From NCBI GenBank assembly GCA_015832175.1, contig WJXW01000001.1, positions 3,596,001 through 3,660,000 of the forward strand: 64,000 nt of DNA, read 5' to 3'. The notes under the pieces were generated by a model. The model was not told where the DNA came from. It ran no database searches and worked only from the letters and a program-made list of their open reading frames with translations. The translations under genes and the position numbers were made by a program. Origin of the DNA: Paraphaeosphaeria minitans (taxonomy: Eukaryota > Ascomycota > Dothideomycetes > Pleosporales > Didymosphaeriaceae). Shown in pieces: positions 34,914 to 62,600 of this stretch; positions within the stretch are counted from its first letter, which is position 1; each line of letters begins with the position of its first letter.

Positions 34914-34939
34914 GTTTGCAGATGTAAAGTTGGGAGGAA

Positions 34940-35330
34940 GAATTCGTCGCTAAGGTAGGCTCGTGGAGAAGGGATGAGGGCGAACAAGAAGTCGTCGCTC
35001 AAGTATACTCGTCGACAATGGATGAAGCGCGAAGCAGAAGTCGTCGCTCAAGTATACTCGTCGACAATGGATGAAGCGCGAAGCAGAAGTCGTCGCTCAA
35101 GTATACTCGTCGACAATGGATGAAGCGCGAAGCAGAAGTCGTCGCTCAAGTATGCTCGTCGACAATGGATGAAGCGCGAAGCAGAAGTCGTCGCTCAAGT
35201 ATACTCGTCGACAATGGATGAAGCGCGAAGCAGAAGTCGTCGCTCAAAGTATGCTCGTCGAGAATGGATGAAGCGCGAACAAGAAGCCGTCGCAATGTAC
35301 AACAAAGCGCGAGCAAAGAAACCGGCTCGA
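34940..35330. repeat. 49-bp minisatellite, six copies plus degenerate ends
   Basis: Unit starts are at 34991, 35040, 35089, 35138, 35187 and 35236, exactly 49 bp apart, nearly identical, each with gtcgtcgctcaagtatactc and a gtcgac site. Degenerate copies flank them (34940-34990 and 35286 to about 35330). The array begins only 27 bp upstream of the nce102-like start codon, in its leader or core promoter. Confidence 0.95.
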
Positions 35331-48426: not shown

Positions 48427-49302
48427 ATGCACTGAAGCTCTTGCGTGCATGGTGGGAAACATGGTCAATCTTTTCGAGCGAATGGGCTGGCGTGCATGGA
48501 AAAGCTATTCAAGGCTCTATAGCTACCCTGTTCTGACCTGATTGCGGGCAGACAGGGTGTCAAAATGAATTCAAACGAGTTCACGATTTTCGATACCCTA
48601 CAATGAAGTATCATTGTGCTTTCTTGTGAACGTGCCCTTCGAATGCGACATGTCTTCGTGTAGCCAGCCTCAGCCTTGCAGATGGCCGGCGCAACATGGC
48701 TCTCCGGTTATCCATGGCTGCATGGGTGCGGAGCCAAGGTTAAACCGCAACGTCAATGCATTTCGTCTTGCTGGCAACGCAAGCATCATGACCGTCCCAC
48801 GCAAGGCAGCACACTCGACGACTCCTGAAAAGCGGAGCCAGGCACATTTGCAATAAAGCCAGCCTTGCGAATCTGTCTGCGTTCAGTGCCCGCTACTGCA
48901 TTGCCGGGATACGCCTGAAGCCTCGCTCCCTTGCCGACGGTTCGCTACGCGGCCCCGCCAAAAACACAGCAGCTCGACACCAAGCCAACGAGCGACTGAC
49001 CAGCGTCCTCGCCTACAACATCTACCTTGTGCACATCCACCCCATCCGACATGTGCTGCTCGTAAATTTGCACCGCCGCCAAACCCTCGAGTCCGGTTGA
49101 CCTACACACGATGCGCGAGCACGCGCGCGGGTCGTCATCTGAGTGACTTCGCCTCAGAACGCCAAAACAAAACAGTAAACGAGCAAGCCAAGCCCAAACA
49201 GAGCCACCACGTCTGCCTGCCACTGCCACTGGCGCAAATAAGCAAACGCTCTCTTAGAGCTGCCACCTCCTCCTCAATCTGCCTGGCGACGGTCCTTCCA
49301 GC
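48427..49302. other. Intergenic, L15 3' UTR and J-protein promoter
   Basis: About 875 bp between two plus-strand genes. No coding frame longer than 110 codons is supported. The sequence just before 49303 is CT-rich (ctcctcctcaatctgcctggcg) as expected of a fungal leader. Confidence 0.5.
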
Positions 49303-51669
49303 ATGGCCAAGATAGATGCCGCGCGCAACTACTATGCGGACCTGAGCATCCCCGCAACGGCCAGCGACAATGATATCCGCAAGTCGTTCCGCAAGCTCGC
49401 ACTCGAATGCCATCCCGATCGGCATCCTGGCCACGAGCAGGAATGGGTCGCGAAGTTCCAGCAGATTCAGGCTGCGCACGAGGTGTTGAGCGACCCCCAA
49501 CAACGCGTCAAGTACGACGCAGAGAGGAAGAAGTTTAGGAATCTGAACATACCGCCTTATAACCCTCCGAACACGCCGCGAAGCCGTCCCCCGCCGCCTC
49601 CTCGCAACACCTACACCAGTACACCTAATGGCGGGCAGTACTATCCTGCTCCTCCACCTCAGCCTCGGCCTCGGCCTGGCCCACAACGACCTGCGCCTCA
49701 GCACCATAATACCTACACAAATGGCGCAGATCGCTTTACTAGCAAAAACTTTAGGACCCCACCGACCGCGCAAAAACCACCTCCTCCCACTGGGAAGGCA
49801 AATGTCTTCACAGCATGGCAGAAGATGAAGCAGCCGCATGCGGAGCCGCCGAGACCACCCCCGTCGAACCCGAACAATCCGAACGGTGCACCCTTTGGTC
49901 GTAGCCAGAGCACGAGAGTGCCATCTTCTAGCAAGAAAGGCTTTGACCCCAACTCTCTCGGTGCCGACGAAGGCCAGGCGCGCTCAGCATATCGCTCCAA
50001 CTATGAGCGACCCAAAGCGTCTCCCATGGGTGAAGACATCCCCGAGGATGTGCCATTCTCGGAGGGAAATCGCGTGCGAACACCATACTTTTCGACCAAG
50101 TCAGGAGAGCGGACGTCAATGTTTGGAGACGGCGTTGGCAGATCCGCCAGCGTTCGCAACTCGCCTACCCATCGAGCGGCCTCTTCTGCCGATCCTGGTT
50201 CGTTTTCAGATTCGGGACATCGACAGCGGGCTTCCTATAGCGGCCCTCCCAAGGATAATCCGTTTCCCCAAATGTATGTCTCGAGCAGTGACGAGGAAGA
50301 TGAAGCCTCCATCTTCAGCAAAGGCCGGAAGCACCGTGATCCGCCTCCACCTAAAGACTCCCCACAGCAGCGAACTCGCTCCAATGTTTTTGGAACTCCA
50401 CAGCATAATGCACAGCAGGACAATGGCATTTCGCCGAACCCTTTCAAGAGCAAAAGCGAAGAAAGCATCAACATGAAGTTCTCACCTGGGCAATGGACCG
50501 GTAAGTTCGAAGGGGCGGGTTACTTCGCTCCGACTCCGCAGAATAGTGGCACGAGCAAGGGTCGCGCGTCGCCCTCTCGCGGCAGGTCAAGTCAACGCTC
50601 GGCCACCGACAAAAAACCCTCTACGGGTCAGCCGCAACCGCCGCCGCCTGTGTCTCCATTCTCCCATTTCTCTCAGATGCCACCTCCTCCACCAGGACCT
50701 CCGCCACCCTTGAACACGCAAACCGCATTCCCTAGCGGAAGTAACTCTGCACCTCATACTGCCAAGTTCGCGCCCGATGTTTGGACGGATACTTTCAAAG
50801 AGCCAAGCTGGGCGTACCCAACGCAAACTCGGACCAAGGAAACCTCACCTCGGCGTGGTTCTGCAGCTCCCAAGCGATCCAACCCCGCTCGCAAGGGATC
50901 GGTTGCCCCTGAGAGTAGCTCCAAGGCTGAAGGACAAGCGGAGAGGAAACCGAAATATCAAGCCTTTGCTGAAGACATCGGTGCTGGTGACGCTATGGAC
51001 GTCGATGAGGCTAGCCCTCCAACAGGGAAGACAATATCCACCCCAGCTTCTGCTGCCACGGCGAACCCAGCTCAAGCCAAGACTGCTGGGCCAGGTACGG
51101 TGCCGAACGGTACCCCTGCTGCTCCCTCTACTGTCTCCACGGATAAGCCTGCTGACCCAGGCCCTAACCCACTGGCTGATTTGGGCAACGTGGAGCCATT
51201 TCTCCCTGCCACGAGCCATGGACTGGGCCTTGGTGAGCTCAAGGATACCTTACCTTTCAAATCCGGCACCTCTCAGAACCACCCGACCAAGCCCAACACG
51301 GCCCAGAAGCTGAAGTATCCCGAGGTTCCCTTGGCACCCTCGGTCCCAGCGAAATTGGACCCGGCGTCTACGAATGACTACTTCAGCCGCATGGAGAATT
51401 ACGTGCGACAGTACAGGAAATGGAACCAGAACATGATGAGCCACTTTGCTGCGCGCGAAGAAGAGCTCAATGATTTGGAGGATCACTTCATATATCAGCG
51501 TGGCGAGACGACGAATCGGATAGGCTTTCCGGGCTATTTGGCTCGGATGAAGGAAGACGAAAGCGTGATGGCGACGTGGCAAGTTGGCCAGGAGCGGCAC
51601 ATCGCCGCCATGGAGAAGTGTCAAGACGTCCGCAACAAAACCATGAAACAGTATACACCATCCGGCTAA
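49303..51669 (+). CDS. J-domain (DnaJ) protein with long disordered tail (788 aa)
   Basis: A single exon. The J domain is at residues about 6-72 with the invariant HPD (37-39, in LECHPDRHPG) and EVLSDPQQRVKYD, so it should stimulate Hsp70 ATPase. There is no zinc-finger or canonical CTD. The rest is Pro/Ser/Asn-rich and low complexity, with an acidic SSDEEDEASIF (about 325) and repeated hydrophobic motifs of the form FSPGQWTGKFEGAGYF (about 392) and FAPDVWTDTFKEPSW (about 488). A conserved-looking C-terminal helical block (about 690-788) has NDYFSRMENYVRQYRKWNQNMMSHFAAREEE. The two FxPxxWtxxF segments look like short interaction motifs. Class III (type C) J protein of unknown client; no signal peptide. 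Confidence 0.9.
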   Translation: MAKIDAARNYYADLSIPATASDNDIRKSFRKLALECHPDRHPGHEQEWVAKFQQIQAAHEVLSDPQQRVKYDAERKKFRNLNIPPYNPPNTPRSRPPPPPRNTYTSTPNGGQYYPAPPPQPRPRPGPQRPAPQHHNTYTNGADRFTSKNFRTPPTAQKPPPPTGKANVFTAWQKMKQPHAEPPRPPPSNPNNPNGAPFGRSQSTRVPSSSKKGFDPNSLGADEGQARSAYRSNYERPKASPMGEDIPEDVPFSEGNRVRTPYFSTKSGERTSMFGDGVGRSASVRNSPTHRAASSADPGSFSDSGHRQRASYSGPPKDNPFPQMYVSSSDEEDEASIFSKGRKHRDPPPPKDSPQQRTRSNVFGTPQHNAQQDNGISPNPFKSKSEESINMKFSPGQWTGKFEGAGYFAPTPQNSGTSKGRASPSRGRSSQRSATDKKPSTGQPQPPPPVSPFSHFSQMPPPPPGPPPPLNTQTAFPSGSNSAPHTAKFAPDVWTDTFKEPSWAYPTQTRTKETSPRRGSAAPKRSNPARKGSVAPESSSKAEGQAERKPKYQAFAEDIGAGDAMDVDEASPPTGKTISTPASAATANPAQAKTAGPGTVPNGTPAAPSTVSTDKPADPGPNPLADLGNVEPFLPATSHGLGLGELKDTLPFKSGTSQNHPTKPNTAQKLKYPEVPLAPSVPAKLDPASTNDYFSRMENYVRQYRKWNQNMMSHFAAREEELNDLEDHFIYQRGETTNRIGFPGYLARMKEDESVMATWQVGQERHIAAMEKCQDVRNKTMKQYTPSG

Positions 51670-59920: not shown

Positions 59921-60610
59921 ATGCACGCCGGTTTAATCTTTCTCGTTACGTCCCTCGCGGCTTCCGCCGTCGCTGCGCCTATGCCTATCCAGGCACCGGC
60001 TGAAAGTCCGGTCATTCGAGAAGCTGAAGCAGATCCCAACGCTTCCGTCCTTGACAATCTGAAGCGTGAGGTTCTCGAGCGGTTGGACGTCATTGCCCAA
60101 CAGTCTACTCGCAATGAAGATGTGTCGGAGGAGATCGAGAAGCGCACCAAACGTCAGTCATCAAAGGGCAACGCCGGGACGGTCTACGACAAGCGCGATG
60201 TTTCGACAGGATACAACCCGTCTGCAAACGACAAGCGCGATGTTTCGACAGGATACAACCCGTCTGCAAACGACAAGCGCGGCGTCTCTACTAGGTACAG
60301 ACCATCCGCGAACGATAAGCGCGATGTCTCCACTAGATACAGGCCTTCGGCAAACGACAAAAGAGACGTCTCAACCGGATACAACCCATCAGCTAACGAC
60401 AAGAGAGACGTCTCAACCGGATACAACCCCTCTGCGAATGATAAGAGGGACGTTTCCACAAGATACAGGCCCTCTGCCAACGATAAGCGCGACTTTGATG
60501 AGGAGGAGGAGGAGGAGGAGGAGGAGGAGGAGGAGGAGGAGGAGGAGGAGGAGGAGGAGGAGGAGGAGGAGGAGGAGGAGGAGGAGGAGGAGGAGGAAGA
60601 GGAGGCGTGA
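59921..60610 (+). CDS. Secreted precursor with seven Kex2-delimited peptide repeats (229 aa)
   Basis: Start ATG 59921 follows an A-rich leader and opens a signal peptide (MHAGLIFLVTSLAASAVAA, cut before PMP). A propeptide (20-92) contains Lys-Arg sites (LKR, EKR, TKR, DKR). Seven 14-residue repeats (93-190; 60197-60490) follow, each ending in Lys-Arg. Four are DVSTGYNPSANDKR and three are D/GVSTRYRPSANDKR. The protein ends with DFD, 35 Glu (GAG microsatellite, 60500-60604) and Ala. This is the plan of Kex2-processed repeat precursors, such as alpha-pheromones and dikaritin-type peptides: secretion, Kex2 cleavage after KR, release of about 12-residue peptides. The repeats have no Cys or Trp and do not resemble known alpha-pheromones. 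No UstY-type (DUF3328) modifying gene is seen in the window. Function unknown; no toxicity is implied by anything seen. Confidence 0.88.
   Translation: MHAGLIFLVTSLAASAVAAPMPIQAPAESPVIREAEADPNASVLDNLKREVLERLDVIAQQSTRNEDVSEEIEKRTKRQSSKGNAGTVYDKRDVSTGYNPSANDKRDVSTGYNPSANDKRGVSTRYRPSANDKRDVSTRYRPSANDKRDVSTGYNPSANDKRDVSTGYNPSANDKRDVSTRYRPSANDKRDFDEEEEEEEEEEEEEEEEEEEEEEEEEEEEEEEEEEEA
60500..60604 (+). repeat. (GAG)n trinucleotide repeat coding poly-Glu
   Basis: About 35 glutamate codons, nearly all GAG with a single GAA near the end, lie at the 3' end of the repeat-precursor gene. Length changes would stay in frame, so the tail is likely length-variable between strains. Confidence 0.95.
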
Positions 60611-61182: not shown

Positions 61183-62600
61183 CTATATCCGACCTGGTGG
61201 CGGCCTGGAATTCCGTGCGATGGGAGACAAGACATAGCCCGAGATCCTCCAGTTTTTCGTAGGGAGCATTCTGACATTCAGCTCTTTCACCTTTGTTCGA
61301 GGCGTGCCGTGTGCTTGCGAGTCGGTGATTTTGCGTTGCATCTCATCGGGAAGTCCGTAGAGAAGGGTCGCAATAGACGAGTTTTTCCAAACACCTATGC
61401 TACGATCGTTTTCCATTGACGTGTGGATGACTGTCCCAGCCAAGAAGAGCAGACTGAGCCCTAGGAGCCCGATAGGCAGAGTAAGCCACACCCAGCGAGT
61501 TCCAATGTAAAACTCCATATTGTATGCGTTACCCAATACTGTGTCGTTACTAGTTTCCCGCATGGCGTTTGTTATGACTGTCGCAAGTCTCTCCATATGG
61601 TGCGTTGCGTTGTTTGGTGCTGACCATGGGTTCTTCGGATATGCTTGTATAAACAGATCTTCCTCGTAGGTCATATACTTCACCAGCCTTTGTGAGTCGT
61701 TACTTGCCAGTGTCGCGAATGAGGGCAAAAAGTCGCTAAAGATAGTGACAATGTTGATGACTGTATTATTGGAAGCAGTGTAATTTAAGATGTTGCCCTG
61801 ATCACTACACAATGCGTGTGGGTTAATAGTGATTCCCTGTAAGTACTGTACAGTGCCTAAAGCGTCGGGTTCTGACGAGTTAGGTGGTTTCATTGTCCAT
61901 GGAAAGGGTCCTGTTGTTGTGTTGATAAAGCTCTCCGTAAGGGTCTTAGTGTACCTCGCTTGCTGATATAACGACTTGATAGTCTTAACACACTATAAAA
62001 GGACGCACTCTAGCGCTCGTGGCTTCTAGCGTTAGAAAATACTCTTTAAAACCCTGCCTTGATCTGGTCCATCTTTGGTTGAAACTACCCCAAAAATGGT
62101 AATAGTATTCTAGATATGCTTGAAGTTGATGGAACCGCTAAACAGAGGTTTTCGATTAATATTTGTGATGAGTGGTAGCATACGTGTTGTTAGAATTTCA
62201 CTAGATAACTGATATGTCAAGGAATCCACTTTGTACCCTAGCATAAGCATCTGATTATCGCCGGTTACATTAAAGAACTAACTGCACATGGTTCTATTCT
62301 TATAAGGCGTGTAGGAAATCGCGTTTTAGACCTAGTCCAGCTTTGTAGGAAGGCAGCCGAAGTTAAGTATGCTAGCTACGTCTGCACATTTGCTGTAAAC
62401 GCCGAGCCTCTTATAGGGCTTCTAGGTATAATTACTAGTAGGGCAGGATAATAGAATTTCTGTATAAGTTCCGTTTCTAACTTAAACTTGCAGTACTCCT
62501 ATATTAAAGAAGAACTTCTTAACTATTGCGTATATATCTTAATCTTAGTTTAATACTTCTATTCTAGACTTCTATTTTCTAGAATAAGGCGGTGCGTAGC
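61183..62600 (-). pseudogene. DUF3176 membrane protein gene, 5' half destroyed by RIP
   Basis: The C-terminal 236 codons (61893-61183) are open and healthy: a lumenal-type region with N-glycosylation sites, then a membrane helix (WVWLTLPIGLLGLSLLFLAGTVI), WKNSSIATLLYGL and a cytosolic tail. This is the usual end of a fungal DUF3176 protein. Upstream, the same frame continues but accumulates stops. ECVLL, TAG, CVKTIKS replaces the family's W in that position. MLGYKVDSLTYQ, LPLITNINRKPLFSGSINFKHI and FGVVSTK are intact in between. Further up, SCPTSNYT-TAG-KPYKRLGVYSKCADV shows Trp to stop and Cys to Tyr. All are G-to-A on the coding strand. No start can be found. Confidence 0.85.

Follow-up and report, generated by a model that had tools for sequence, protein, structure and literature searches.

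Architecture of the precursor gene

The window analysed here, a stretch of 64,000 nucleotides from Paraphaeosphaeria minitans (older name: Coniothyrium minitans), lies on a 5.15 Mb contig (C1) of a 47.45 Mb genome and harbours an intronless gene of 229 codons and a stop codon at positions 59921..60610 of the forward strand. Its product opens with a hydrophobic, signal-peptide-like segment (MHAGLIFLVTSLAASAVAA; 59921..59977), judged by eye to end in AVAA-P, and the residues M1, A3, L5, S15, A16, A18, A19 and the following P20 were invariant across eight aligned sequences. Continuing on the same strand are a propeptide (59978..60154) that contains three KR sites and the conserved segment LKRE(V/I)LERL, then a decayed unit, QSSKGNAGTVYD-KR (60155..60196), seven 14-residue units of 42 bp each (60197..60490), and an acidic tail, DFD-E35-A (60491..60607). 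The seven units comprise four copies of DVSTGYNPSAND-KR, two of DVSTRYRPSAND-KR and one of GVSTRYRPSAND-KR. The decayed unit is akin to the main core of a relative of the protein (P0003, described below), and none of 300 shuffles scored as high.

The spacing of the dibasic sites sets this reading frame apart. It encodes 11 KR dipeptides, against 1.04 expected from its composition, and eight KR-to-KR gaps of 14 residues; amongst all six-frame stop-to-stop segments of the whole window, it was the only one in which the commonest KR-to-KR gap exceeded four residues and occurred at least three times. The initial annotation had described a Kex2-type repeat precursor of seven 14-residue units, each closed by Lys-Arg, and the open reading frame and constant spacing bear this out. 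Its two peptide classes are in fact three forms, and its count of seven units had omitted the decayed eighth.

Precursors of this kind have been named KEPs (Le Marquer 2019, PMC6339444), and 7878 of them have been catalogued in 1345 of 1461 strains (Umemura 2020, PMC7329392). KEPs are recognised by at least three near-identical repeats that make up at least 15% of the protein (PMC6339444); in the present protein the seven units account for 43% of the sequence and a KR follows every one, and its N-terminus looks signal-like by eye. The 12-residue product expected from each unit falls within the class of 9 to 24 residues, reported as the commonest amongst Dikarya KEPs (PMC6339444). No Pfam family was found for the protein, and its family is unnamed in the open-access literature searched, which included passages of PMC6339444 and PMC7329392. 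Paraphaeosphaeria appears once in the main text of PMC7329392, under type G-8; as this type carries a di-histidine motif (PMC7329392), it represents a different family. The suggestion that the precursor was undescribed therefore stands for the family but not for its kind, which was already catalogued (PMC7329392), and the supplements of that catalogue may list this very protein.

The acidic tail is enlarged by a GAG microsatellite (60500-60595) of 32 copies, which encodes most of its 35 glutamate residues. The length of this run is expected to differ between strains, and the acidic tails of the relatives are shorter; 10 of the 11 relatives carry a net-negative C-terminal tail of 10-23 residues, and the remaining one (P0001) ends inside a unit.

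Genomic surroundings

The gene sits in an island, 7 kb long (approximately 55-62 kb) and normal in GC content, with AT-rich sequence on both sides, comprising a left stretch at 52.2-54.9 kb of the window and a right block of approximately 159 kb and 30% GC, which runs from window position 62,000 to about C1:3,817,000. Measured over 52.2-54.9 kb and over C1:3664001-3764000, the AT-rich DNA has a TpA/ApT ratio of 1.76-2.0, compared with 0.63 for window positions up to 52 kb, and hence looks RIP-like. In the 154 kb between the window end and C1:3814000, part of 164 kb covered beyond the window, no ORF of at least 150 aa was found, and the first such ORFs beyond the block begin at C1:3817508. Judging by its size, the block may be a centromere or an extensive region of decayed repeats.

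Next to the precursor gene, on the reverse strand (61183..61992), is a fragment that resembles the C-terminal region of proteins of the DUF3176 type; it ends at the AT-rich block and appears not to belong to the same system. It is 50% identical over 269 aa to an intact DUF3176 gene at C1:3819658-3822159, so that the fragment and its intact relative flank the block on opposite sides; a DUF3176 domain match at the fragment's own locus was not obtained. Pfam scanning of 26 of the 82 window ORFs of at least 150 aa, the precursor included, returned DnaJ, PSP1, INCENP, acetyltransferase and GCFC/G-patch domains, and amongst these 26 ORFs no peptide-modifying enzyme was found. A 49-base tandem repeat of seven copies with 93% matches is also present in the window, at 34939-35293.

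Constraint on the repeat units

A Nei-Gojobori comparison across the seven units gave a mean pS of 0.74 and a mean pN of 0.08, a ratio of 0.11, which was reached in none of 400 neutral simulations at each of two divergence settings, the star tree used in these being a simplification. The selection on the peptide proposed in the initial annotation, for which a comparison of dN/dS between units had been advocated, is thus upheld within the array. The tyrosine is invariant across the seven units, and the two swaps noted earlier, G to R and N to R, were found to be fully coupled, with G and N together in units 1, 2, 5 and 6, and R and R together in units 3, 4 and 7.

The silent positions of the units are near saturation, with the exception of a recent copy: units 1 and 2 have the same DNA (42/42), which indicates one recent duplication. 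When codon choice was compared with independent draws based on the usage of six long window ORFs, the synonymous mismatch between the six distinct units was 0.594, against 0.643 for the draws (237 of the 2000 were no higher than the value seen), and that between all seven units was 0.557 against 0.641 (36 of 2000). Since silent sites have nearly saturated whilst the amino acids hold, the peptide is constrained by purifying selection within the array. The view that the copies reflect silent drift rather than recent duplication needs correcting for units 1 and 2. Near-saturated silent sites imply either that the array is old or that unlike DNA between units has been favoured. The latter idea, a selected dissimilarity acting against recombination or RIP, is unsupported, though still conceivable, as the mismatch did not rise above that of independent draws and saturation suffices.

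Relatives of the precursor and the contrast between leader and core

Two protein searches retrieved 11 relatives (seven, and a further four; P0001-P0011), and the protein itself was not among the database matches listed. All of those with a species assigned belong to the Pleosporales, including the Bimuria and Lentithecium proteins. Two originate from P. minitans, namely PMIN03_003738 (P0002) and PMIN06_004773 (P0005), and others from P. sporulosa (P0011), Bimuria novae-zelandiae (P0004, P0006, P0007 and P0009) and Lentithecium fluviatile (P0010).

The main cores of these proteins are diverse. To the DVSTGYNPSAND of the present precursor corresponds DVSSKYRPSAND in P0001, whilst P0002 carries RQYIGPSANY behind EAEA/EPEA spacers, and P0006 and P0007 carry RQYSGPSANY and REYSGPSANY, respectively. 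The main core is QSSKGYAGKVWD in P0003, DSGYPVFAPSAND in P0004, TSTRPYQGSSAGKWD in P0005, DNRGLVSPTSNY in P0008, RVYDHSGVN in both P0009 and P0010, and DGGRPVFAPKGND, in two copies only, in P0011. B. novae-zelandiae thus encodes four genes of the family with three main cores. A tyrosine is present in 11 of the 12 main cores and a phenylalanine in the twelfth.

Leaders were compared with main cores in all 66 pairs of the 12 proteins, pairs which are not independent, since there are only 11 relatives, some of them close to one another. With matches divided by the longer length, mean identity was 0.59 for leaders and 0.28 for main cores, the leader being higher in 62 pairs; with aligned positions only and gaps ignored, the values were 0.64 and 0.42, and the leader was higher in 55 pairs. 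Judged from these alignments, the leader is as a rule conserved better than the main core. The core exceeded the leader in 4 (or, by the second measure, 11) of the 66 pairs, including that of the present precursor with P0001, in which the main cores are 0.75 identical and the leaders 0.40-0.42. Because relatives with similar leaders carry quite different main cores, the fixed peptide of the initial annotation holds within the array, under purifying selection, and is not a general rule across relatives. In comparison with described KEPs, it is this conserved leader, with turnover of core types between relatives, that distinguishes the family.

One alternative is that the protein is a structural component of the cell wall or a repellent-type repeat protein, similar to Rep1 or to Rsp3, in which the KR sites would be of little importance. 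The protein is indeed long, repetitive and putatively secreted, with a poly-glutamate tail, and the constraint observed within the array is equally compatible with a structural repeat. Nevertheless, the main units are bounded by KR or RR in every one of the 12 proteins, whilst their sequence and length vary (9-15 residues), which is the opposite of what a structural repeat would need, and we consider this explanation highly improbable. Rep1 is mentioned in PMC9769878.

Comparison with alpha-pheromones and dikaritins

Precursors of alpha-pheromones have the same architecture as the present protein, and the possibility that it encodes the sexual pheromone of this lineage was therefore considered. 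STE2 is present in the genome and the usual Pleosporales core, PYG[LM]P[IV]G, was not found, and Ste13-like EAEA/EPEA spacers follow KR in three of the 11 relatives (P0002, P0006 and P0007). The units of the present protein, on the other hand, lack an XA/XP (Ste13) spacer. A pheromone also has to fit its receptor, and one would expect it to form the conserved portion of its precursor, whereas here the core is usually the less conserved part, and the four genes of B. novae-zelandiae encode three different main cores. Such a role is accordingly regarded as very unlikely.

Pleosporales alpha-pheromones are reported to have the PYG[L/M]P[I/V]G core and to lack the two cysteines of other groups (PMC6339444), and the earlier argument against a pheromone, from missing Trp and Cys, is hence weak; its conclusion survives because the units lack this core, which is absent from the relatives as well. 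In the genome, a tighter pheromone pattern gave one match, PYGFPVG at C1:892036, which was rejected as a pheromone gene since it lies in a short frame devoid of KR repeats, and with a looser pattern there were 17 matches at dispersed sites, compared with 42 in a reversed control, none of those in the genome having KR directly after it. A negative result with the PYGxPxG pattern does not show that a pheromone is absent, as the core may differ in this family. Relative to ascomycete alpha-pheromone precursors, the family is thus set apart by the missing PYGxPxG, a poorly conserved core and the several unlike copies in Bimuria.

The tyrosine of the cores suggests a further explanation, in which the precursor belongs to the dikaritin-type RiPPs and its cores are cyclised by UstYa/UstYb oxidases that act in trans or derive from a cluster lost here. 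Apart from the near-universal tyrosine of the units and main cores, this would be in keeping with the 27 stretches elsewhere in the genome that matched the UstYa profile (PF11807), all unlinked, so that modification in trans is possible, and with the report that tyrosine occurs in 65.6% of repeats near DUF3328 genes and in 38.2% of those without (PMC7329392). The ustiloxin and phomopsin precursors (UstA, PhomA) are secreted and likewise have KR-bounded tyrosine cores. However, the nearest UstYa match on C1 is approximately 1.04 Mb to the left of the gene, whereas catalogued DUF3328 genes are 3.09 genes away on average (PMC7329392); none was found by profile within 1 Mb, a search that genes of many small exons could escape. 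Neither UstYa nor tyrosinase was found amongst the 26 scanned window ORFs, and the right flank is the AT-rich block that lacks ORFs of at least 150 aa as far as C1:3814000. The initial annotation's statement that no UstY-type gene is near thus extends well beyond the 64 kb window. The EDYxI motif of ustiloxins and phomopsins (PMC6339444) is likewise absent from the core of this precursor and from the cores read in its relatives. In sum, we regard a dikaritin as unlikely, though less so than a pheromone.

The Epichloe gene gigA resembles the present gene in its organisation, as a repeat precursor with several peptides in each molecule, and its product, epichloecyclin, is a cyclic RiPP, unlike the linear peptides proposed below. 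This gene is mentioned as the epichloecyclin precursor of Epichloe in PMC7720123.

Probable exchange of cores and a mosaic leader

A core type that has been amplified in one precursor can recur as a single or double unit in others. Units resembling DVSTGYNPSAND were found in P0002 and P0004, and weakly in P0008, those resembling QSSKGYAGKVWD in the present precursor, P0002, P0004 and P0008, and those resembling RVYDHSGVN in P0002 and P0007. With core types clustered by a rule of our own, 11 of 33 minor units, a set that includes some tails, matched a core amplified in a different precursor (at most 3 in 300 shuffles; approximately 0.4 expected), and 22 did not. As one of the matching units, GRDWVGSSMNY of P0002, resembles the core type of its own precursor, 10 of the 11 matches speak for exchange.

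The leader of the present protein is a mosaic, its two parts matching different P. minitans proteins. Residues 1-49 are identical to P0002 at 47 of 49 positions and to P0005 at 28, whilst residues 50-77 are identical to P0005 at 25 of 28 positions and to P0002 at 10. The identity of its main core is 0.29 with P0002 and 0.13 with P0005.

In the 47.45 Mb genome the gene was the only strong match to four protein queries, which did not include P0001, P0003, P0004, P0006 or P0008-P0011, and no paralogues were found with these four. One query returned four pieces of the same gene and two matches on C9, which were discarded as paralogues owing to their weak E values of 0.48 and 0.63. Given a single gene in the genome, the simplest reading of the P. 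minitans versions, and a plausible one, is that they may be alleles of one locus. The neighbouring DnaJ protein (49258-51666) shares 785 of 788 aligned residues with PMIN06_004770, the next named relative being that of Karstenula rhodostoma (87%), which places the window in P. minitans (Didymosphaeriaceae) or a very close sister. The locus tags PMIN06_004770 (DnaJ) and PMIN06_004773 (precursor) are three apart, compatible with the order in the window; the longest contigs tabulated for these two tags differ, however (127,320 and 165,558 bases), and do not decide the matter.

More speculatively, these allelic versions might predate the species, such that conspecific strains differ in their peptide under nearly the same leader, as under the balancing selection seen in recognition genes. 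This idea arises because the peptide of the present precursor is shared with another lineage (P0001) in spite of the divergent leader, and we hold it to be doubtful. If true, it would represent a secreted-peptide system of identity or antagonism in a mycoparasite; allelism at one locus would in itself make this a polymorphic secreted-peptide system in a biocontrol fungus.

Proposed mode of action

We favour, with a probability of about 0.75, a secreted, Kex2-processed precursor of linear 12-residue peptides whose cores turn over in response to a changing partner. The precursor would enter the ER via its signal peptide, a Kex2 protease of the late Golgi would cut behind every Lys-Arg, and the KR would then be trimmed off by a carboxypeptidase of the Kex1 type, so that approximately seven linear 12-residue peptides are released per precursor molecule. 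The genome contains one match to the P_proprotein domain of Kex2-type proteases (E 5.6e-29, in a 923-aa frame), a domain that is not Kex2-specific and that in a control matched Methanosarcina acetivorans as well. With no match to UstYa over the surrounding 1 Mb, and with searches for a Pleosporales pheromone core flanked by KR likewise negative, linear peptides are the likeliest products, and the products of KEPs in mushrooms (Coprinopsis and others) are described as linear and minimally modified (PMC9769878).

The leader and acidic tail may serve sorting and processing and are conserved, the peptide being the faster-changing part. New precursors may arise when one core type of a shared set is amplified and the others are lost or left as single decayed copies, recombination between versions aiding the replacement of cores, after which purifying selection would hold the peptide within one array. 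Constraint within the array, combined with replacement of cores between relatives, fits a peptide that matches or defeats a changing partner, and the likeliest role is that of an extracellular signal or antagonist rather than of a housekeeping hormone. P. minitans is a mycoparasite of Sclerotinia according to published abstracts, and candidate partners include a fungal host, a rival fungus and another individual or strain of P. minitans. No phenotype could be detected when KEPs were deleted in Coprinopsis, and the authors link KEPs to the biotic environment (PMC9769878). What KEP peptides do is described as largely unknown (PMC9769878), and a family in which the leader is kept and the peptide replaced, and in which versions differ even within one species, may offer a handle on the partner that drives the change.

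The side-chain charge is -2 for DVSTGYNPSAND, and 0 and +1 for DVSTRYRPSAND and GVSTRYRPSAND, respectively, and the expected monoisotopic masses of the free 12-mers are 1238.505 and 1379.643.
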